From Bryobacterales bacterium (GTDB taxonomy: Bacteria; Acidobacteriota; Terriglobia; Bryobacterales; Bryobacteraceae), in contig PKZC01000365.1 of assembly GCA_003132905.1 (NCBI GenBank), forward strand, positions 1-12,591: a stretch of 12,591 nt of DNA. The letters run 5' to 3'. Every line of letters starts with the position of its first letter. Position 1 is the first letter of the stretch. The notes beneath the pieces are model-generated. The model did not search any database and had not been told where the DNA came from. It was given only the letters and a program-made list of their open reading frames with translations. A program made the translations under genes and the position numbers. Positions 2,534 to 12,591 of the stretch are shown one piece after another.

Positions 2534-2923
2534 TCAAAGGACCGAGGCGATATCGGTCCTCTTAAAATTCTCTCCCTTAAACAAGAGAGGCTCGCCGCTC
2601 GTCTTGGTAAGCGCATAGGCGAAGCAGTCGCCGAAATTCAACCCCGCCGGGTGACGGCCTTTTCCGAAATCATGGAAGGCTTGGCGCGCGATATGCGCCT
2701 GCTCAACCGTGAAGGGCTCGACGACGATGCCTGCGCGGCGGAAAAACATGTCGCACTGGCGAGCGACCTCCGGTCCAGTCTGGCGCTCGATAACGATAGA
2801 AAGCTCCAGAAATGTTCCGCTACTGATGAGACAGCGATCAGCGCCGTGGATGAGCCGGGTATAGGAGTCGGCTTCAGGTTCCCCGAACAGAACCGCGATC
2901 ACCGCGGAGGTGTCCAAAATCAT
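2534..2923 (-). CDS. vapC: VapC-type PIN-domain toxin
   Basis: A 129-residue protein of typical VapC length. PIN ribonucleases of this group cleave tRNA or rRNA using a cluster of acidic residues that bind Mg2+ or Mn2+. The visible residues are D4 (MILDTSAVIA), E40 (TFLELS) and D99 (LNFGDCFAYAL), followed by LLFKGENFKRTDI near the C-terminus, where relatives usually have a second Asp (GDDF); here it reads GEN. The start ATG overlaps the stop of the antitoxin gene by four bases (ATGA), the usual arrangement for coupled antitoxin-toxin genes. It is convergent with the upstream VWA gene: the two stop codons are 20 bp apart. Family assignment is secure; the RNA target cannot be read from the sequence. 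Confidence 0.92.
   Translation of the reverse strand: MILDTSAVIAVLFGEPEADSYTRLIHGADRCLISSGTFLELSIVIERQTGPEVARQCDMFFRRAGIVVEPFTVEQAHIARQAFHDFGKGRHPAGLNFGDCFAYALTKTSGEPLLFKGENFKRTDIASVL
2538..2560. terminator. Hairpin between convergent VWA and vapC genes
   Basis: AGGACCGA at 2538-2545 pairs perfectly with TCGGTCCT at 2553-2560 around a 7-nt loop. It lies just after the VWA stop codon and inside the last codons of vapC. The plus-strand sequence after it (CTTAAAATTC) is only weakly T-rich, so it may be a poor intrinsic terminator or just an mRNA 3'-end hairpin. Confidence 0.35.
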
Positions 2924-3192
2924 TTTGGCAAGCCGTGTTCGTCGTAGAGGAGTTCGGCATGATCCAAATAGGGACGTTTGACGTGAGCTGCTGCTCGCTC
3001 GGCGATCGCGCGCAGTTCTTCAACGGAGGCCTTATTACGGCGGCGCTGAAGTCGCTCGTACCGTTCCCGCAGCGCTTCCGTGACGGCTCGAGTCATGGTT
3101 TCTCCGGTTTCCCGCGCAATTGCCTCGGCAAGCCTATGGGCGTCCGGATCCTTCACGTTGAGATTCACGGCTTTTCTTGCTTTCTTTACCAC
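2920..3192 (-). CDS. vapB: VapB-type antitoxin
   Basis: A 90-residue basic protein beginning with GTG. The N-terminal half (KAVNLNVKDPDAHRLAEAIA, then a MTRAVTEALRERYERL helix) has the strand-helix-helix pattern of ribbon-helix-helix VapB/PSK-type antitoxins, which bind DNA as dimers and repress their own operon. The C-terminal half (from about residue 55 to HAELLYDEHGLPK) would be the toxin-neutralising tail. A purine-rich ribosome site (GAAAGG on the minus strand, about 6 nt before GTG) supports the start. The stop overlaps the vapC start. An 11-bp direct repeat spaced by exactly 20 bp covers the ribosome-binding and start region and may be the binding site for autoregulation. Confidence 0.88.
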   Translation of the reverse strand: MVKKARKAVNLNVKDPDAHRLAEAIARETGETMTRAVTEALRERYERLQRRRNKASVEELRAIAERAAAHVKRPYLDHAELLYDEHGLPK

Positions 3193-5967: not shown

Positions 5968-6192
5968 ATGAAGATGTTTCGCCTCCCGACAGCAGAACAA
6001 GTGGCGCGGGCGGAAGATTGTCTGCTCCATCCGGCGCGCGGGAGCCGAATCGAAGCAGCCAAGAACTATGGCATAGATTTGACACTGCTCGTTGAGCAGT
6101 TGCGGCTAACGCCGTCCGAACGGGCGCGAAAACTCGAACTCACGTCAATGGCGCTGGAACAAGTGCGCGGAGCCGCGCGCCGCCGTTCCTAA
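5968..6192 (+). CDS. Small helical protein paired with a nucleotidyltransferase
   Basis: A 74-residue protein of unknown family, predicted mostly alpha-helical and basic at the end (EQVRGAARRRS). The motif LTPSERARKLELTSMALEQV resembles the short helical proteins often encoded just ahead of minimal nucleotidyltransferases, where they may act as partner or antitoxin. Its stop codon shares one base with the start of the nucleotidyltransferase gene (TAATG), so the two are almost certainly translated together. An alternative start (ATG at 5974) would remove two residues. No ribosome site is visible and the promoter-like TAAAAT suggests a leaderless start. The partner role is inferred from gene order and this pattern. 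Confidence 0.65.
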   Translation: MKMFRLPTAEQVARAEDCLLHPARGSRIEAAKNYGIDLTLLVEQLRLTPSERARKLELTSMALEQVRGAARRRS

Positions 6193-6668
6193 TGCAATTC
6201 GAGAAAGCGGTCCAAGCACTGTGCGATGCAAGCGTCGATTTCGTTGTAATCGGTGGCCTCGCAGCTACGCTCCACGGTAGCGCGCAAGTGACCTATCATT
6301 TGGACATTTGCTATTCCCGAGCCACCGCCAACCTGCGCCGGCTCATCCAAGCACTCGCTCCATTTCATCCAAGGCCGCGAGGACTTCCCGGCGGCCTTCC
6401 TTTCGTTTGGGATGAAGTGACCCTGCACAACGGAACGGTGTTCACCCTTCAGACTGACATCGGTGAAATCGATCTCCTGGCAGAGGTCACGGGTCTGGGA
6501 GCCTTTGCCGACGTGAAACAACACTCGATAACGGTGGAAGCATTCGAACGCCACATCGAGACGCTCGATCTCCCAGGACTTATCCGCTCAAAACGGGCAC
6601 TATGCCGAGCGAAGGATTTAACCGCTCTTGCCGAACTCGAGAGCATCCTCGAAGCTGGCGAACCATAA
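6192..6668 (+). CDS. Minimal nucleotidyltransferase-fold protein, altered active site
   Basis: A 158-residue protein of the polymerase-beta-type nucleotidyltransferase superfamily (MNT/AbiEii-like group). The nucleotide-binding GG is at 21-22 (VVIGGLAATLHGS). The acidic pair, normally DxD in 'TYDLDI', reads H36-L37-D38 (TYHLDICYSR). A third acidic position is supplied by GEIDLL (D94). The rest (FVWDEVTLHNGTVFTLQTDI, then a helical end with KDLTALAELE) follows the family pattern I recall. Members modify RNA or protein by adding nucleotides; some are toxins neutralised by a partner. The Asp-to-His change needs one base (GAT to CAT) and could reduce or abolish catalysis. It is coupled by overlap to the small helical protein upstream. 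Confidence 0.82.
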   Translation: MQFEKAVQALCDASVDFVVIGGLAATLHGSAQVTYHLDICYSRATANLRRLIQALAPFHPRPRGLPGGLPFVWDEVTLHNGTVFTLQTDIGEIDLLAEVTGLGAFADVKQHSITVEAFERHIETLDLPGLIRSKRALCRAKDLTALAELESILEAGEP

Positions 6669-7283: not shown

Positions 7284-7916
7284 ATGTTTCTATCGCACCA
7301 TGAAATCGAGCAGGACTTTCCCAATTTCATCGAGAAAGGTAGTAAAGAATTTCTCCGGGAGGTCTGCTACGACCTGCGGGTAGGTGATGAGGTTTATCGC
7401 TCGGAAGAACGTCTACCGGACAGCCTTTCCCAAGACAGGCAGCCATTTGTCATCATACAGCCAGGACAATTCGCGCTGGTTAAGACGCTCGAATTCGTAA
7501 AGGTTCCTGCAGCGAACGTGGGATTCATTTCGATTCGGTCAGAGTACAAGTTCCAAGGATTGGTCAACGTGTCAGGATTTCATGTGGACCCGACATTTGA
7601 GGGGCACTTGATCTTCGCTGTACAGAATGTCGGCCCGAACGACATTAGACTCCGATACGGGGAACCGGTTTTTATGATGATGTGGGCCAAACTGTCGGAG
7701 CCCTATCGCCCTCCCGTAGGAGCTCGAAAACGGGATGGGTTCCCAAATATTCCCGTGCGCTTCATGGCGCAACTGGGCGGCGGAAGTATCACGCTCTCCG
7801 CACTGAAAACAGAAGTCGATAAGCTCAACACACAGGTCAAATTCTTCATCGGCATTGGCATTGGATTAATCATGGCGATCATTGGGGTAATCCTTAGGCT
7901 CGTTTTCCAAAAATAG
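7284..7916 (+). CDS. Membrane-anchored dCTP deaminase/dUTPase-fold protein
   Basis: A 210-residue protein. Residues 1-140 follow the dCTP deaminase (Dcd)/dUTPase fold pattern: CYDLRVG at 28-34, IIQPGQFALVKT at 57-68, SIRSEYKFQGL at 83-93, SGFHVDPTFEGHLIFAVQN at 97-115 and LRYGEPVFMMMWAKL at 123-137. In E. coli Dcd the catalytic Glu lies in 'IVLEFYN'; the matching stretch here is LIFAVQN, with Ala at that place, so deamination is unlikely. The C-terminus adds a short coiled-coil-like helix (LSALKTEVDKLNTQ) and a strong membrane segment (about 187-207), leaving the nucleotide-binding fold in the cytoplasm. The likely role is nucleotide binding or sensing, or another activity; real dCTP deaminases serve thymidylate synthesis and, in some phage-defence systems, dCTP depletion. 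Confidence 0.8.
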   Translation: MFLSHHEIEQDFPNFIEKGSKEFLREVCYDLRVGDEVYRSEERLPDSLSQDRQPFVIIQPGQFALVKTLEFVKVPAANVGFISIRSEYKFQGLVNVSGFHVDPTFEGHLIFAVQNVGPNDIRLRYGEPVFMMMWAKLSEPYRPPVGARKRDGFPNIPVRFMAQLGGGSITLSALKTEVDKLNTQVKFFIGIGIGLIMAIIGVILRLVFQK

Positions 7917-7993
7917 AGCACGGCCCCGATTCGGGGGAGTCGTCCTTCTTCAAACCGACTGTCCCCATGCGCCCCTTTTCTTAGGAAGAGGGC

Positions 7994-8024
7994 TTGACAG
8001 ATTCCCGACAAGTGGTAAGATAAT
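7994..8024 (+). promoter_or_regulatory. Sigma-70-type promoter of the XRE/ThyA-like/kinase operon
   Basis: A perfect -35 hexamer TTGACA (7994-7999) is followed by two overlapping -10 candidates: TAAGAT (8016-8021, spacing 16) and GATAAT (8019-8024, spacing 19). Transcription would start around 8028-8031, only about 6-10 nt before the first ATG at 8037. The -10 region lies within a perfect palindrome, so a bound repressor would directly block RNA polymerase. Confidence 0.75.
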
Positions 8025-8032
8025 CTTACCAC
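8012..8032. promoter_or_regulatory. Perfect 21-bp palindromic operator
   Basis: The arms GTGGTAAGAT and ATCTTACCAC are exact reverse complements separated by a single A. The palindrome covers the -10 region and ends 4 bp before the first start codon of the operon. Its size and symmetry fit a dimeric helix-turn-helix repressor; the XRE protein encoded second in the operon is the obvious candidate. I found no second copy elsewhere in the window. Confidence 0.8.
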
Positions 8033-8036
8033 GGGA

Positions 8037-8333
8037 ATGCCGATGCCAACAACCGAAGAAATCCAAGCAAAACTAATCGAGACGATCTGCGCCGTCCAGC
8101 TAGCCTGCGGCGAACCAGAGCCGGTCCTAACGCCCAAATCGTGTCCGATGATGGAGCTCAGAGGATTCGACAGCCCGTTAGGAGTCAACGTGACCGGCGT
8201 TGTGGCGATCGGCTTGGGGATCGAAATTCCTTTGGAGCTTAACGTGTTCGTGGATGACAACAAACGTCGCCTGACGATCGAGGAGAGCACTGCGCTGATA
8301 TTTAAGGTCATCAACAAACGGAGCACAAAATGA
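8037..8333 (+). CDS. Acyl-carrier-protein-like small protein
   Basis: A 98-residue acidic protein with the layout of an acyl carrier protein: an N-terminal helix (TTEEIQAKLIETICAVQ), the loop MMELRGFDSPLGVNVTG with GFDS at 43-46, where Ser46 is the possible phosphopantetheine site, then LGIEIPLELNVF and a final helix starting LTIEESTALIFKVI. The classical 'DSL' is DSP here. It might carry an acyl or aminoacyl group, or only keep the fold. ATG at 8037 and ATG at 8043 are both possible starts. It is the first gene after the palindromic promoter, and its stop overlaps the XRE gene start (ATGA). The fold is inferred from motif spacing only; why such a protein heads this operon is unclear. Confidence 0.6.
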   Translation: MPMPTTEEIQAKLIETICAVQLACGEPEPVLTPKSCPMMELRGFDSPLGVNVTGVVAIGLGIEIPLELNVFVDDNKRRLTIEESTALIFKVINKRSTK

Positions 8334-8668
8334 AGAAAGAGGATTCGAATCGAGGCGAAATCGGCTCACGAATCAGGATGGCCCGTGAGATGGCCGGACT
8401 ATCTCAGGGGCAGGTGGCAAAGCTCATGGGACTCCACCGCCCATCGGTTACCGAAATTGAGGCAGGAAATCGACGGGTCTCAACTGACGAGCTTGAACAG
8501 TTTGCGGCTCACTTTGATGTGAGCACGTCGTGGCTACTAGGCGAAGACGAAAGTGGTAAGCCCGATCAGGCAAAACTTCAGCTTGCTGCCCGCGAGCTCG
8601 AGAAACTTAAGCCTGAAGACCTAGATCGCCTGATGAAGCTTTTGGCTGCGATTCGTCAGGAGAAATAG
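8330..8668 (+). CDS. XRE-family helix-turn-helix repressor
   Basis: A 112-residue DNA-binding protein. Residues 11-66 form a Cro/CI-type helix-turn-helix: IGSRIRMAREMAGLSQGQVA, then KLMGLHRPSVTEIEAGNRRV and LEQFAAHFDVSTSWLLGE, a very typical XRE pattern. The C-terminal part (from about 79) is a Lys/Leu/Glu-rich helix for dimer or partner contact (AARELEKLKPEDLDRLMKLL). GGAG lies 6 nt upstream of the ATG, and the start overlaps the stop of the ACP-like gene. Directly downstream is an ImmA/IrrE-type peptidase, the classic pairing in which the peptidase cleaves the repressor on a stress signal. The palindrome at 8012-8032 is its probable operator, which would make the operon self-repressed. Confidence 0.9.
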   Translation: MKKEDSNRGEIGSRIRMAREMAGLSQGQVAKLMGLHRPSVTEIEAGNRRVSTDELEQFAAHFDVSTSWLLGEDESGKPDQAKLQLAARELEKLKPEDLDRLMKLLAAIRQEK

Positions 8669-8670
8669 CC

Positions 8671-9534
8671 TTGAAGAGCGTGACGAGTCAATTGGCTACA
8701 AAAGGGATACAGGCGGCATTGCAAGTACGGCAGTTATTGGGCGTCGACCTTCATTCCCCGATATGCATCTTCGATGCTTGCGATACGCTCGGTGTTCAGG
8801 TGCGATTCGCCAAGATAAATTCGATGGAAGGCATGTACTACCAGGGCCCGCCAGCAAGAATTCTCCTTGGGGCAAAACGTCCTCTTCCGCGACGCACGTT
8901 TAGCTGTGGACACGAACTAGGCCATCACATTTTTGGACATGGTTCAACAATCGATCAACTCCAAAAAGCGACGGCAACCGAAGCCTGGCAACCGGACGAA
9001 TTCTTGGTAAACTCGTTCTCCGCCGCGCTGCTAATGCCGCACGTGGGATTAAAAAGGGCGTTCGCGGTGCGCTCTACCACTCCGGTAATGGCGACGCCGC
9101 AAGAGCTTTTTGCAATCTCATGCAATTTCGGAATTGGGTACGACACGCTAGTGAACCACATGGCGTATGGTGTCCGTCTCATTACCGAGGAACGGGCGAC
9201 GGAGCTAGGACACTTTTCTCCTAAAGAAATCCGCAGGGAGCTGCTCGGAAAAGATGTTCAGCACCCGCTGGTCATCGTTGACCAGCATTGGTCTGCGCCT
9301 ACGGTGGATCTCGAAGTGGACAGCTTCCTGCTGGTGCCGGCTCAGCTGTCTGCCGAGGGGACTGTGCTACGCCATTGCGAGAGTCTTGGCTCGAACGAAC
9401 TATTTCAGGCTGTCTCCCCGGGCTTAGGCCGGGTGGTGGACAAAAGGGGAGAATCGCGATTCGTCCGCGTGAGTCGGTTTCACTTTGCAGGATTAAGCAA
9501 GTATCGACACCTAGAGGAGGATTCAGACAAATGA
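8671..9534 (+). CDS. ImmA/IrrE-type zinc metallopeptidase
   Basis: A 287-residue protein. The zinc site HELGHH lies at 81-86 (HExxH at 81-85), and the expected third ligand is E110 in PDEFLVNSFSAALLMP, a hallmark of ImmA/IrrE peptidases. In ICEBs1 and Deinococcus such enzymes cleave an XRE-type repressor after a DNA-damage or other signal. The C-terminal 120 residues (from about 165) form a second domain of unknown role, perhaps the signal sensor. The start is TTG at 8671, supported by AGGAG 8 nt upstream, 2 bp after the XRE stop. The stop overlaps the ThyA-like gene start (ATGA). Together with the repressor and palindrome it makes a complete-looking inducible switch for the downstream genes. 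Confidence 0.9.
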   Translation: MKSVTSQLATKGIQAALQVRQLLGVDLHSPICIFDACDTLGVQVRFAKINSMEGMYYQGPPARILLGAKRPLPRRTFSCGHELGHHIFGHGSTIDQLQKATATEAWQPDEFLVNSFSAALLMPHVGLKRAFAVRSTTPVMATPQELFAISCNFGIGYDTLVNHMAYGVRLITEERATELGHFSPKEIRRELLGKDVQHPLVIVDQHWSAPTVDLEVDSFLLVPAQLSAEGTVLRHCESLGSNELFQAVSPGLGRVVDKRGESRFVRVSRFHFAGLSKYRHLEEDSDK

Positions 9535-10316
9535 GCACGAGCCCATTACTAACTGATGAGGCAAGCCTTTCCCGCGCATGGGCAAAGTCTATCCTTTACG
9601 TACTAGACCACCCCGGAAAGATTGTGTCTCCCTTGATCGTGAGCATCACGGGCTTCGGCCAGAATCAAATTCCTGAAGACGCAGCATTTCGTACAGCTGT
9701 AGATGCTGCGCTTGAAACTGCGGGTGAGCAATCGCCGCATACGGTCGCCAACACAATTTTTCCGCAATCCCTTTGGCGACTGGCCGGCGGAAACCGCGAG
9801 CGGTTATATGAAATCTATATCCAGAGCTTTCCTCGGTTGCAGGCGTTAGCCAAGAGACAGAATCGTCGAGGGCTATATTTCGAGCGACTGATTCGGTGGA
9901 GTTCTACCGGAGAACGCAACAACCAACTTGAATGGATCATCGGACAGTATCGTGAGCGCCCCAGCGTACGGCGGAGTGCGCTGCAGGCGAGCATTTTCGA
10001 CCCCGAGCGAGACCACATTCCAGACGCGCAGCTCGGGTTTCCGTGTCTCCAGCAGATCAGTTTCGTGCCCGAGGGCAGCTCGTTAGTGATGAACGCCTTT
10101 TACGCGAAACAGTCACTTTTCCAAAAGGGGTATGGGAATTACTTGGGTCTATGTCGCCTTGGCCTATTCATGGCGGGAGAGATGGGCCTCACGTTGGAGC
10201 GGGTGAACGTCACCATTGGGGTTGCTGAGTTAGAGATGTTGTCCAAGTCCAGTCCAATTGTTAAGGACTTGCAGCGTGCCGCGCAGCTTCTTTGCAACCC
10301 TGCCTTTGCCGCTTGA
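9531..10316 (+). CDS. Thymidylate-synthase-superfamily protein
   Basis: A 261-residue protein. The C-terminal half matches the core of the ThyA / dCMP-dUMP hydroxymethylase superfamily by eye: VRRSALQASIFDPERD (146-161, compare ThyA 'RRxxxSAWNP'), GFPCLQQISF (169-178) with Cys172 at the catalytic Cys position, and KQSLFQKGYGNYLGLCRLGL (193-212, compare 'RSxDxFLGxPFN'), followed by FMAGEMGL. The His after the catalytic Cys in ThyA is replaced by Leu, and the ThyA ending GxxAHxY reads GVAELEM, so this is not a housekeeping thymidylate synthase. A hydroxymethylase or other C5-pyrimidine activity is plausible. ATG at 9531 was chosen because AGGAGG lies 10 nt upstream and the start overlaps the peptidase stop; a longer frame from 9288 is out-of-frame reading of the peptidase gene. 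The kinase fusion follows after 8 bp. Confidence 0.7.
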   Translation: MSTSPLLTDEASLSRAWAKSILYVLDHPGKIVSPLIVSITGFGQNQIPEDAAFRTAVDAALETAGEQSPHTVANTIFPQSLWRLAGGNRERLYEIYIQSFPRLQALAKRQNRRGLYFERLIRWSSTGERNNQLEWIIGQYRERPSVRRSALQASIFDPERDHIPDAQLGFPCLQQISFVPEGSSLVMNAFYAKQSLFQKGYGNYLGLCRLGLFMAGEMGLTLERVNVTIGVAELEMLSKSSPIVKDLQRAAQLLCNPAFAA

Positions 10317-10324
10317 TTGACGTA

Positions 10325-12049
10325 ATGATGCGACGACTAATTCAAAAAGAACCTGGCAAGTTGATCGTTCTTGAGGGTCCTGACGGTGTCGGTAAGACAA
10401 CTCTGGCCGCAGAATTGGGTAATCGGCTCGAAGCGGCAGGGGAGCGAACGAGAGTCTTGAGTTTTCCCGGACGGGAGCCCGGAACTCTCGGCGCACATGT
10501 TTACGCCTTACACCATGCTCCCAGCCTCTTCCAGATAGAGAGCATGACCGCTGCGAGCAAGCAACTGCTGCATGTTGCTGCCCATCTAGACGTGATCGAA
10601 TCAAAGATTCAGCTGTGGTTGAAAGATGGCATCAACGTAATTCTCGATCGGTATTGGTGGTCAACGTGGGTTTATGGGCGAGTTGAGGGCGTTTCGACCG
10701 CACTCCTAGATGCGATGATGGGCGTGGAACGTGCCGCGTGGGGTCGCACCATGCCCGCGCTTACGGTGCTGCTGCGCCGACAACAACCAATTAACCGGGA
10801 TGTCAGTGCAGCGGAATGGATAAACTTCCAAAATTTGTACAGCGATCTGGCGATGCGTGAGCGGGCTGAGACGGCGGTGCTATTTCTCGACGATTCACCG
10901 ACCCCCCAATCCGCATGTGATTCGATCCTTGCTGTTTTGCAAAAGAAAGCATCCCAGCACGCTAAAGGTCTATCGCGGCAGGAATTGTCAATTGACCTGG
11001 TCGCTCCCGAGCGATCATCAACCGGGCCCGTCGTGCTCACTCACCTGTCGCCGATCAAGGCGACCCCAGTCTATGACACCTACTGGAAGTTTGCGGTTGA
11101 GCGGCAGGAGGTATTCTTCAGGCGGCTCGAAGGGCGACCCGCCCCATGGACGGACGATCCGATTCTTCAAACGTTTAAGTTCACCAACGCCTACAGAGCG
11201 TCCGACAGGGTGAGCCAGTTCCTTATCAGAAACGTTATCTACAACGAAAAGTACCCAACTGATCGGGAAGAAGTCTTTTTCCGCATTCTACTGTTTAAGC
11301 TGTTTAACAAGATAGACACCTGGGAGCTGCTCGAAAGCAAGCTTGGACCGATTCTCTATTCGGAGTATTCGTTTGCTCGATACGATGAAATCTTGACTGC
11401 CGCAATGGCAAGAGGCGAACGCATTTATTCCGGTGCGTATATTATGCCGTCTGGCGGTCGTATTTTGGGCTTCAGCACCAAGCACCGCAATCACCTGAGT
11501 CTCCTGGAGCGAATGATGGCGGATGATGCGCCTCGTAAGATTCAAGACGCGAAGACGATGCACGCAGGGTTTGATATTCTCCTCACGTATCCAACGATAG
11601 GAGAGTTCCTCGCATATCAGTTCGTCATTGATCTTAATTACAGCGAGTTGACGTGTTTTAGCGAACGTGACTTCGTTGTTCCTGGGCCGGGAGCATTGGA
11701 CGGCATTCGCAAATGCTTCGTCGACCTTGGTGGATTGAACGAGCCCGAATTGATACGGTTCATCGCTGACCAGCAGGAGAGGGAATTTGAACGTCTTGGC
11801 CAGCGCTTTCGGTCTTTGTGGGGACGGCCACTTCATCTCATCGACTGCCAGAATTTGTTTTGCGAGGTGGACAAGTATTCGCGGGTTTATCACCCTGAAA
11901 TCGCTGGTATCAGCGGTCGCACTCGTATAAAGCAGAGATTCTCCCAGAACCCAGCGTCGATAGGTTACTGGTATCCCCCAAAGTGGGGGCTCAACGACCA
12001 CATTGCCGCCAATCCCAAGAATCATTCGCTAACCAAAGGGGCTGTATGA
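10325..12049 (+). CDS. Thymidylate-kinase-like domain fused to a DNA base hypermodification helical domain
   Basis: A 574-residue fusion. Residues 12-207 are a thymidylate-kinase-like P-loop domain: Walker A GPDGVGKTT at 18-26, FPGREPGT at 47-54 and DRYWWSTWVYG at 108-118. Residues about 245-560 match the helical domain I know from phage 5-hydroxymethyl-dU DNA kinases and related thymine pyrophosphorylases: TYWKFAVERQ, PWTDDPILQTFKFTNAYRAS (274-293), PTIGEFLAYQFVIDLNYS (423-440), VVPGPGALDGI (451-461) and QNLFCEVDKYSR (509-520). The GPGA and PxIG motifs resemble helix-hairpin-helix DNA-contact elements. The enzyme probably phosphorylates a modified pyrimidine, in a nucleotide or in DNA. ATG 10325 was chosen (10328 also possible) over a TTG at 10292 inside the ThyA-like gene; the ribosome site is weak, suggesting coupling. 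The stop overlaps the next start (ATGA). Confidence 0.78.
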   Translation: MMRRLIQKEPGKLIVLEGPDGVGKTTLAAELGNRLEAAGERTRVLSFPGREPGTLGAHVYALHHAPSLFQIESMTAASKQLLHVAAHLDVIESKIQLWLKDGINVILDRYWWSTWVYGRVEGVSTALLDAMMGVERAAWGRTMPALTVLLRRQQPINRDVSAAEWINFQNLYSDLAMRERAETAVLFLDDSPTPQSACDSILAVLQKKASQHAKGLSRQELSIDLVAPERSSTGPVVLTHLSPIKATPVYDTYWKFAVERQEVFFRRLEGRPAPWTDDPILQTFKFTNAYRASDRVSQFLIRNVIYNEKYPTDREEVFFRILLFKLFNKIDTWELLESKLGPILYSEYSFARYDEILTAAMARGERIYSGAYIMPSGGRILGFSTKHRNHLSLLERMMADDAPRKIQDAKTMHAGFDILLTYPTIGEFLAYQFVIDLNYSELTCFSERDFVVPGPGALDGIRKCFVDLGGLNEPELIRFIADQQEREFERLGQRFRSLWGRPLHLIDCQNLFCEVDKYSRVYHPEIAGISGRTRIKQRFSQNPASIGYWYPPKWGLNDHIAANPKNHSLTKGAV

Positions 12050-12591
12050 CGTTTGATGAATATCAGCTGAAAGCAAAGGACACGGACCAAGTGCCGGGGA
12101 ACGGCGATCAACAGAAGATCGTTCCACTGCTGGGGTTGGCGGGTGAAGCGGGTCAGCTGTTGAGTGAATACAAGAAGTACCTGAGGGACGGAGATGCACA
12201 TCGTCTGTTTAAGGAGCGGGTAGCGGAGGAACTAGGTGACCTTCTTTGGTACATTACAACGGTCGCGACGAAGTTCGATCTTCATCTTGACGAAATCGCC
12301 GTGGAGAACATTAAGAAGACACATGCTCGATGGGGCCATGATCGGTCAGCGACGCTCGAACTATTTCGATTCTTTGACGAAGACTATCCAGCGGGAGAGC
12401 GACTACCTCGATATTTCGAAGTGCAGATAAGTGATACGGTGGAGAACGGGTCTGTTAGGATGCGCGCTTTCATAAGCGGCAAACAAGTGGGCGATCCTTT
12501 AACTGACAATGCTTATTCCAGTGACGGGTATCGGTTTCACGACATCTTTCATTTTGGATTCGCTGCGGGCCTCGGATGGTCGCCGGTAACC
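12046..12591 (+). CDS. MazG-like nucleotide pyrophosphohydrolase (partial)
   Basis: 182 residues are visible and the frame is still open at the window end. Residues 1-95 carry the MazG-type all-alpha fold: LLGLAGEAGQLLSEYKKYLRDG, then VAEELGDLLWYITTVA (59-74). The metal-binding pattern is ExxE...ExxD in the family; here the first half reads E34-A-G-Q37 and the second E62-L-G-D65. These enzymes split (d)NTPs to monophosphate and pyrophosphate. The region from about 118 (LPRYFEVQIS, DPLTDNAYSSDGYRFHDIFH, GLGWSPVT) is a conserved C-terminal extension that I recall from a subgroup of bacterial MazG-like proteins. The start overlaps the kinase stop, so it belongs to the same operon. The likely role here is to remove normal or damaged dNTPs that compete with a modified nucleotide. 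Confidence 0.85.
   Translation, partial: MTFDEYQLKAKDTDQVPGNGDQQKIVPLLGLAGEAGQLLSEYKKYLRDGDAHRLFKERVAEELGDLLWYITTVATKFDLHLDEIAVENIKKTHARWGHDRSATLELFRFFDEDYPAGERLPRYFEVQISDTVENGSVRMRAFISGKQVGDPLTDNAYSSDGYRFHDIFHFGFAAGLGWSPVT

Follow-up and report, generated by a model that had tools for sequence, protein, structure and literature searches.

Defence of the AvcID/dCTP deaminase type depletes nucleotides and attacks pyrimidine pools. Phages that hypermodify thymidine, such as the Ackermannviridae (e.g. PP35) and the SPO1-like SBSphiC, encode the HMUDK_hel domain, nucleotide kinases, an enzyme of the thymidylate synthase superfamily and a nucleotide pyrophosphohydrolase. Nucleotide-modifying defence has been validated only recently. 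In the DefensePredictor screen, 42 of 94 tested operons were protective in E. coli, and the newly validated anti-phage domains include 5-hydroxymethyluracil kinase and thymidylate synthase, MazG, MazG-C and dUTPase being predicted, not validated (PMC13092281, Science 2026). In the CapH/CapP, ImmR/ImmA and DdrO/PprI switches, an XRE repressor adjoins an M78 peptidase. The IrrE/PprI peptidase is reported to cleave its repressor on DNA damage (PMC10904395). Here we describe a six-gene operon in a 12,591-nucleotide stretch of DNA from a Bryobacterales bacterium (contig PKZC01000365.1); this whole stretch is called the window below. The six genes are a conserved system, in which gene linkage and operator are well supported and the association is not due to chance. 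Nucleotide-modifying defence is a kind that is already known; what is new here is an acyl carrier protein (ACP) with its 4'-phosphopantetheinyl transferase (PPTase), a divergent ThyA-like protein (ThyA*) and the switch.

A conserved gene set and its operator

Comparison of related sequences establishes the gene set, its order, the palindrome in front of it, the serine of the ACP, the cysteine of ThyA* and, in relatives, an adjacent PPTase gene. In the window, six open frames on the + strand are separated by gaps of 2-8 bases or joined by 4-base overlaps (Table 1). Pfam, NCBIfam and PADLOC matches bear out the first-pass annotation of this DNA, which had read the frames as six packed genes and had assigned their families essentially correctly. 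The palindrome, the AcpS (holo-ACP synthase) gene beside the operon in relatives and the DCD/dUTPase-fold gene upstream are additions to that annotation. The peptidase frame has a TTG start and an HELGH motif, and HExxH is kept in 74/74 distinct homologues. The fusion starts at 10325 or 10328 and holds a thymidylate kinase-like (TMK-like) domain at about 10370-10783 and HMUDK_hel at about 11063-11905. The MazG protein is incomplete at the window end, and its MazG domain (5.5e-4) lies just below the Pfam cut-off; the full-length MazG of the nearest relative, L001 (12514-13398), passes it (MazG_C 2.3e-72, MazG 3.1e-6).

Table 1. Operon, promoter region and upstream neighbour, with positions counted in the window.
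Feature	Position	Strand	Remarks
DCD/dUTPase-fold protein	7284-7916	+	210 aa (amino acids); Pfam DCD 1.6e-14; family HMM (hidden Markov model) e-42
Promoter-like site TTGACA-16-TAAGAT	7994-8021	+	consensus scan of 7900-8100; 10/12 matches
Perfect 21-base palindrome GTGGTAAGATAATCTTACCAC, operator-like	8012-8032		unique in the window; 0 expected
ACP-like protein	8037-8333	+	98 aa; predicted phosphopantetheine site Ser46 (8172-8174)
XRE-type repressor	8330-8668	+	HTH_3 8.6e-14; PADLOC capH 2.1e-16
ImmA/IrrE-type M78 metallopeptidase	8671-9534	+	Peptidase_M78 7e-11; PADLOC capP 5.3e-12
ThyA* (ThyA-like)	9531-10316	+	divergent thymidylate-synthase-superfamily protein; Cys172 at 10044-10046
TMK-like/HMUDK_hel fusion	10325-12049	+	Thymidylate_kin 6.3e-14; HMUDK_hel 1.8e-111
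MazG nucleotide pyrophosphohydrolase with MazG_C	12046-12591	+	MazG_C 2.1e-27; cut by the window end

The ThyA* alignment was scanned over genome contigs, which gave 89 confirmed loci, and the best 80 of them were analysed. Partners were counted with profile HMMs made from the fetched loci, within 7 kb of ThyA* and at E<=1e-3, and Pfam identities were checked on single representatives. Since these loci were found via ThyA*, they show which genes accompany ThyA* and not the reverse, for which 21 genomes and 20 plasmid loci are used below. The first-pass annotation had expected the ThyA-like and fusion genes to be conserved jointly, and HMUDK_hel was indeed found near ThyA* in 80/80 loci. The ACP, XRE and M78 genes were each present in 76/80; all three are missing from the same four loci (L040, L057, L076 and L079), two of which, L040 and L079, are at the ends of contigs. 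MazG was found in 67/80 loci and AcpS (holo-ACP synthase), the PPTase, in 63/80. The gene order ACP-XRE-M78-ThyA*-(TMK)-HMUDK on one strand was kept in all 76 loci with ACP. Less frequent companions were a DCD-like gene (24/80), a phage-type thymidylate synthase (9/80), a ThsB-type TIR (3/80) and Nmad2 (2/80).

The loci are distributed over cyanobacteria, Acidobacteria, alpha- and betaproteobacteria, Binatota, Eremiobacteraeota, Mucilaginibacter (Bacteroidota), Verrucomicrobiaceae and others; the closest genome locus, in a metagenome-assembled genome of Candidatus Sulfopaludibacter, has a ThyA* identity of 82%. Among 4495 scored candidates, 3395 were ThyA* homologues at E<=1e-3, and 7955/7999 scored candidates were homologues of the fusion. 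The components diverge in parallel, with Spearman rho of 0.58-0.87 over 21 pairs of pairwise distances, not corrected for shared ancestry, and 0/200 permutations reached the observed correlation in each of six pairs tested. Such a joint rise of the component distances would be expected for genes that are transferred together as one set.

Two promoter-like sites, one per strand, were found in the scan of 7900-8100 (mean of shuffles 0.0), and the palindrome overlaps the -10 hexamer of the + strand site. A copy of its core GTAAGATNATCTTAC, with at most 2 mismatches, precedes the ACP match by no more than 160 bp in 74/77 loci, which are the window and 76 of L001-L080. The same core has 86 hits in the 1.93 Mb fetched, in which some loci occur twice, versus 3 after one mononucleotide shuffle; as the pattern was derived from the same sequences, this count is descriptive. 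In L069, MazG lies away from the operon with its own copy of the palindrome 47 bases before the MazG match, so that MazG is independently tied to the regulon. The XRE and M78 proteins resemble CapH and CapP by their PADLOC matches, their genes are adjacent and the palindrome is at the operon promoter. The palindrome overlaps the -10 box and the regulators are CapH/CapP-like; very probably, therefore, the operon represses itself and is induced when the peptidase acts, XRE being the presumed binder of the palindrome and the inducing signal a postulate. The repressor/peptidase switch seen by the first-pass annotation is therefore upheld by both the PADLOC matches and the conserved operator. Unlike in the CapH/CapP, ImmR/ImmA and DdrO/PprI switches, the ACP gene here lies between the palindrome and the repressor, and the palindrome sequence is conserved across phyla.

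In the reverse test, HMUDK_hel was sought irrespective of ThyA*. It was sporadic, being found in 11/244, 5/398, 3/247 and 13/388 genomes; one genome in each count is the centre genome, for which HMUDK_hel was already known, and the sample of 388 overlaps that of 244. ThyA* is present in 9 of the 21 distinct non-centre HMUDK genomes, in 7 cases together with ACP; of the 12 without ThyA*, one (G1012) has ACP (Fisher p 0.002). This survey includes short or cut stretches (e.g. L124, L126 and L129), where absences carry little weight. The fusion matched 23 plasmid records (H21 in the TMK part only), and 20 of these were fetched with flanks of 5-10 kb. ThyA* is present in 9/20 fetched plasmid loci, all 9 with XRE and M78. 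In 7 of the 9 (L086, L108, L109, L110, L111, L136 and L138) the ACP is identified by HMM or by its NCBI annotation, and in L114 and L156 it is suggested only by eye; a PPTase gene is present in 4 of the 9 (L109, L114, L136 and L156). In the 5-10 kb flanks of the remaining 11 plasmid loci, of which L139 and L140 are unannotated, no ACP or PPTase was detected by profile or annotation. The Streptomyces plasmids carry the set in divergently oriented parts, otherwise complete except for AcpS, which is not in the stretch. A Haloarcula plasmid carries together a PPTase, a helix-turn-helix protein, ImmA, a C1 peptidase, a ThyA* homologue (4.6e-33), HMUDK and dTMP kinase; a 111-aa protein with an Asp-Ser motif encoded there looks ACP-like by eye and has no profile match. 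In L114 and L156 (Rhizobium ruizarguesonis and Haloarcula), a C1-family papain-like peptidase gene directly follows M78, and it is possible that this peptidase is a further component of the switch.

The probable carrier protein, ThyA* and HMUDK_hel

The most unusual and most surprising feature of this system, to which the first-pass annotation had given little weight, is that an operon for nucleotide or DNA modification comes with a dedicated ACP and its own PPTase. In a full-text literature search, outside which some key older papers lie, no published system with an ACP/PPTase link was found. The first gene of the operon very probably encodes an ACP: Ser46 is conserved in 71/72 distinct homologues (22/22 in a smaller profile set) and aligns with the Ser of PDB 1klp, the phosphopantetheine Ser at the start of helix 2. 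PF00550 matches 2/22 family members (best 1.2e-7); the window protein is not among them and matches no Pfam family. With the 22-member profile, 12 distinct PDB sequences were matched at modest E-values (0.003-0.08); 11 of them are named ACP and the twelfth, 2lki, is a 'putative uncharacterized protein'. Several homologues are annotated as 'acyl carrier protein' by NCBI. The AcpS gene often lies on the opposite strand just after MazG. In L001 it is located at 13408-13791 on the - strand, its 3' end 9 bases past the MazG stop, and the two AcpS proteins tested match Pfam ACPS (7.6e-16 in L001 and 1.1e-18 in L109). By analogy, the AcpS gene belonging to the operon of the window should lie just past the window end, after MazG.

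As judged from its alignments, ThyA* is a member of the thymidylate synthase superfamily. It has no Pfam match; it matches NCBIfam TIGR03283 (3.4e-8, below cut-off) and a PHROG thymidylate synthase family (7.3e-5). In hhalign with five phage and plasmid thymidylate synthases (Prob 92.4, E 5e-7), Cys172 is aligned with their conserved Cys, the nucleophile, and an Arg-Arg pair with theirs. Cys172, which stands in a Pro-Cys context, and Asn203 are invariant in 50 aligned ThyA* sequences. The best PDB match, a weak one (E 0.036), is CMP 5-hydroxymethylase. By eye and beyond the hhalign segment, counterparts of Asn177 and of the Arg-Arg places are present and the places of Arg166, Asp169, His207 and Tyr209 are changed, in what we take to be the numbering of E. 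coli thymidylate synthase. Because several of the residues expected to contact phosphate, uracil, 3'-OH and folate thus appear changed, the substrate and donor of ThyA* are probably not those of thymidylate synthase, which turns dUMP into dTMP with methylene-THF.

The first-pass annotation had likened ThyA* to a phage dUMP hydroxymethylase, and this simple assignment is doubtful. ThyA* coexists with a phage-type thymidylate synthase in the 9/80 loci mentioned above (by the stricter scan in 5 of the 9, L011, L019, L047, L050 and L070; at the looser cut-off only in L020, L071, L072 and L078) and also in L109. Since the two coexist in some loci, such as L011, L047 and L109, ThyA* need not be the hydroxymethylase, and several residues of its nucleotide site seem, by eye, to be lost. 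No match to ThyA* was found in 50,697 phage records, and 2.9 million viral contigs gave one locus, with ACP, XRE, M78 and TMK/HMUDK around it. This near-absence from viruses, at the sensitivity used, does not support a phage origin of ThyA*.

The fusion combines a clear HMUDK_hel domain with a TMK-type P-loop domain. It matches 484 phage records, and all 40 matches listed hit the HMUDK part. In phage PP35, HMUDK_hel is ORF113, which one report places among the alpha-glutamyl/putrescinyl thymidine pyrophosphorylases, enzymes of 5-hydroxymethyldeoxyuridine (5-hmdU) transformation (PMC6336734). The view that the operon shares this domain with hypermodified-thymine phages, held already in the first-pass annotation, is thus supported. 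ORF114, which adjoins ORF113, is annotated as a putative NTP pyrophosphohydrolase and has no MazG profile match. In SBSphiC, a single frame of 636 aa has HMUDK_hel as its C-terminal part and, by eye, a P-loop at its N-terminus; a thymidylate synthase follows. The phage pathway differs from the operon in that no ThyA* was found in the phage collection; in addition, four phage stretches (L081-L084) and 35 kb of PP35 gave no ACP, AcpS, XRE or M78 profile match. PP35 ORF105, a 'putative acyl carrier protein', was rejected as a counterpart of the ACP, since by eye the corresponding Ser is missing and the ACP profile does not match it. Hydroxymethyl-dU DNA kinase activity, which had also been proposed, is doubtful because HMUDK_hel is the helical part and TMK is rarely with it (directly before HMUDK_hel in 7/80 loci, within 7 kb in 12/80); 73/80 bacterial loci have no kinase domain fused to HMUDK_hel. 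A search for a known fold of HMUDK_hel gave no PDB sequence match, three aquaporin rows at E 1.2-1.9 being chance.

A proposed mechanism and its rivals

A defence or anti-invader role of the operon is likely. The defence setting proposed earlier gains from the DefensePredictor screen, in which related domains were validated: its systems, with thymidylate synthase, dNMP kinase, 5-hmdU DNA kinase and NMAD domains, are related to the operon by domain name, and the accessible part of the text mentions no ACP, PPTase or ImmA/IrrE peptidase with those domains and gives no mechanism (PMC13092281). In our literature search, no published mechanism for thymine-type nucleotide-modifying defence was found. 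Sixty of 227 flanking frames of the ThyA* loci were drawn at random and 58 were scanned, two long ones being omitted. Among the 25 of 73 matching models listed are AbiEi (2, best 7.8e-91), AbiEii (1.9e-115), GajB (best 6e-139) and NERD+UvrD (1.1e-273). Other HMUDK_hel loci sit with ThsB-type TIR and Nmad2, or with a CBASS-annotated patatin.

We give about an even chance to the reading that the operon is a defence under an XRE/ImmA switch, spread by horizontal transfer, whose product is an abnormal 5-substituted deoxyuridine and whose ACP may carry the group to be attached. In the resting cell, XRE would bind the palindrome over the -10 box and silence the operon that encodes it. The M78 peptidase, activated by a signal that is probably DNA damage or foreign replication, would then inactivate the repressor; such self-repression and peptidase-triggered induction are likely. 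ThyA* would activate C5 of a deoxyuridine nucleotide via its Cys and attach a group, and the TMK domain, where present, would phosphorylate the product. MazG/MazG_C would clear competing normal nucleotides, and HMUDK_hel would elaborate the modified pyrimidine, either in DNA or as a nucleotide. The ACP, armed by its own PPTase, would most likely carry the group that ThyA* or HMUDK_hel transfers, and the modified nucleotide would harm invading replicons. The substrate, the product, the ACP as group carrier and the poisoning of the invader are steps that we infer. A more specific version, which we regard as tentative and rather unlikely, is that ThyA* takes the C5 substituent from a carrier-protein thioester and not from tetrahydrofolate, so that bacteria of many phyla, and haloarchaea too, would on induction use acyl- or aminoacyl-deoxyuridine to poison DNA that invades them. 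If true, a thioester-donor ThyA* would be a new enzymatic logic for modified DNA bases, and an ACP with its activating enzyme in a DNA- or nucleotide-modification operon would link fatty-acid/polyketide-type chemistry to immunity. The operon is widespread and compact and has a recognisable palindrome, and Ser46 of the ACP and Cys172 of ThyA* make the chemistry directly testable.

Several observations, however, weigh against a group-carrying ACP in a defence operon. The core set has no enzyme that would load an ACP (e.g. an adenylation domain). Haloarchaea are not known to have bacterial-type fatty acid synthesis, which puts the cargo of the ACP there in question. In the observed arrangements, the ACP keeps its place beside XRE-M78 as well as beside ThyA*, and a regulatory role is equally linked. 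MazG is absent from 13/80 ThyA* loci and AcpS was undetected in 17/80, in each case some on short contigs; TMK is as rare as stated above; and the palindrome is absent before ACP in L029, L032 and L077. In the reverse survey, G170 and G341 have ThyA* and no detected ACP, and in G1012, which has ACP, AcpS and XRE, ThyA* and M78 were undetected and HMUDK is in pieces. The count of defence genes in the neighbourhood has no control set to compare with. A DNA search for E. coli homologues gave none, and the accessible part of PMC13092281 leaves it unsaid which of the domains belong to a common operon.

The strongest competing reading gives the ACP a sensing role in place of a carrying one. ACP and PPTase would then form a sensor, in which the holo-ACP or its acyl state binds M78 or XRE and reports infection, and ThyA*, HMUDK_hel and MazG would be the effector, distorting pyrimidine pools with no use of the ACP as a substrate carrier. 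This is also rather improbable in our judgement, and it fits several features of the loci: the ACP gene is the first after the palindrome, ACP-XRE-M78 are ordered together in the Streptomyces plasmids even with HMUDK and MazG transcribed separately, and ACP, AcpS and XRE are what G1012 retains. However, a plasmid search with one ACP query gave 4/4 records that also have HMUDK, and no switch serving other genes was seen in this small sample. The haloarchaeon, from a group with no known fatty acid synthesis, still keeps a PPTase, which argues against sensing as well. Since ACP, XRE, M78 and ThyA* stay together, carrier and sensor are not separable by these data.

The operon might instead serve constitutive or element-linked DNA modification, with hypermodified thymine in host or plasmid DNA as a protective self-mark, as in phages. 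We consider this unlikely: although the occurrence of HMUDK_hel in hypermodified-thymine phages, the phage-type thymidylate synthase in 9/80 ThyA* loci and the carriage on plasmids agree with it, the palindrome and peptidase switch suggest transient expression, the core set has no restriction enzyme and, within the sensitivity of the searches, hardly any virus has ThyA*. Host DNA modification was demoted to a rival because the switch is present and the core has no nuclease. We regard it as very unlikely that the operon has no function in immunity and is a stress-induced clean-up system for pyrimidine nucleotides that are damaged or non-canonical. The sporadic and partly plasmid-borne distribution speaks against this reading, as do AbiE, GajB and other defence-model neighbours (counted, as said, with no control set) and the company of ThsB-type TIR and Nmad2 that HMUDK_hel keeps in other loci. 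On its side, MazG, DCD/dUTPase-fold proteins and TMK are classic sanitation enzymes, and the operon holds MazG and TMK with a DCD/dUTPase-fold gene nearby. Switches of the XRE/ImmA type respond to DNA damage, as is reported for PprI/IrrE (PMC10904395).

Neighbouring genes and other HMUDK_hel loci

The DCD-like gene upstream of the operon may be an accessory member of the system. Its product has a C-terminal hydrophobic segment that looks membrane-like by eye. A terminator-like site at 7927-7942, downstream of the gene, suggests a separate transcript, and in L061, L063 and L109 the DCD-like gene is divergent from the ACP gene. At the place which we take to be that of the dCTP-deaminase catalytic Glu, the 23 sequences inspected by eye read Ala or Ser, so that a working dCTP deaminase is unlikely. 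The operon resembles AvcID-type defence in the proposed attack on pyrimidine nucleotide pools; unlike in AvcID, the DCD-fold protein here is accessory, with its presumed Glu place changed, and the core consists of ThyA*, HMUDK_hel and MazG. Members of an uncharacterised family of about 170-190 aa, h109, are repeatedly encoded next to the DCD-like gene or to the operon with the ACP (L044, L051, L061, L063, L064, L068, L071, L072 and L078, and further L109, L114, L116, L118, L127 and L156); the member in L109 has no Pfam match.

HMUDK_hel loci without ThyA* and ACP include L085, L106/L131, L115, L117, L128, L132, L139 and L140. Profile matches to ThsB-type TIR and Nmad2 occur in them, and several have a phage-type thymidylate synthase. 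The ThsB-type TIR/Nmad2 loci are a second architecture around HMUDK_hel as the hub domain. In L085, a patatin annotated as CBASS phospholipase is directly upstream. Cyanobacterial HMUDK_hel-MazG loci without ThyA* were also seen (L120-L123), and in L123 these two genes are separated by a DUF1643 gene.

Elsewhere in the window, small overlapping genes on the - strand at 2534-3192 resemble, by eye, a VapBC-type pair of antitoxin and PIN-domain toxin. A 158-aa nucleotidyltransferase-like frame at 6192-6668 is preceded by a small frame at 5968-6192, and by eye the two are perhaps a toxin-antitoxin-like pair.

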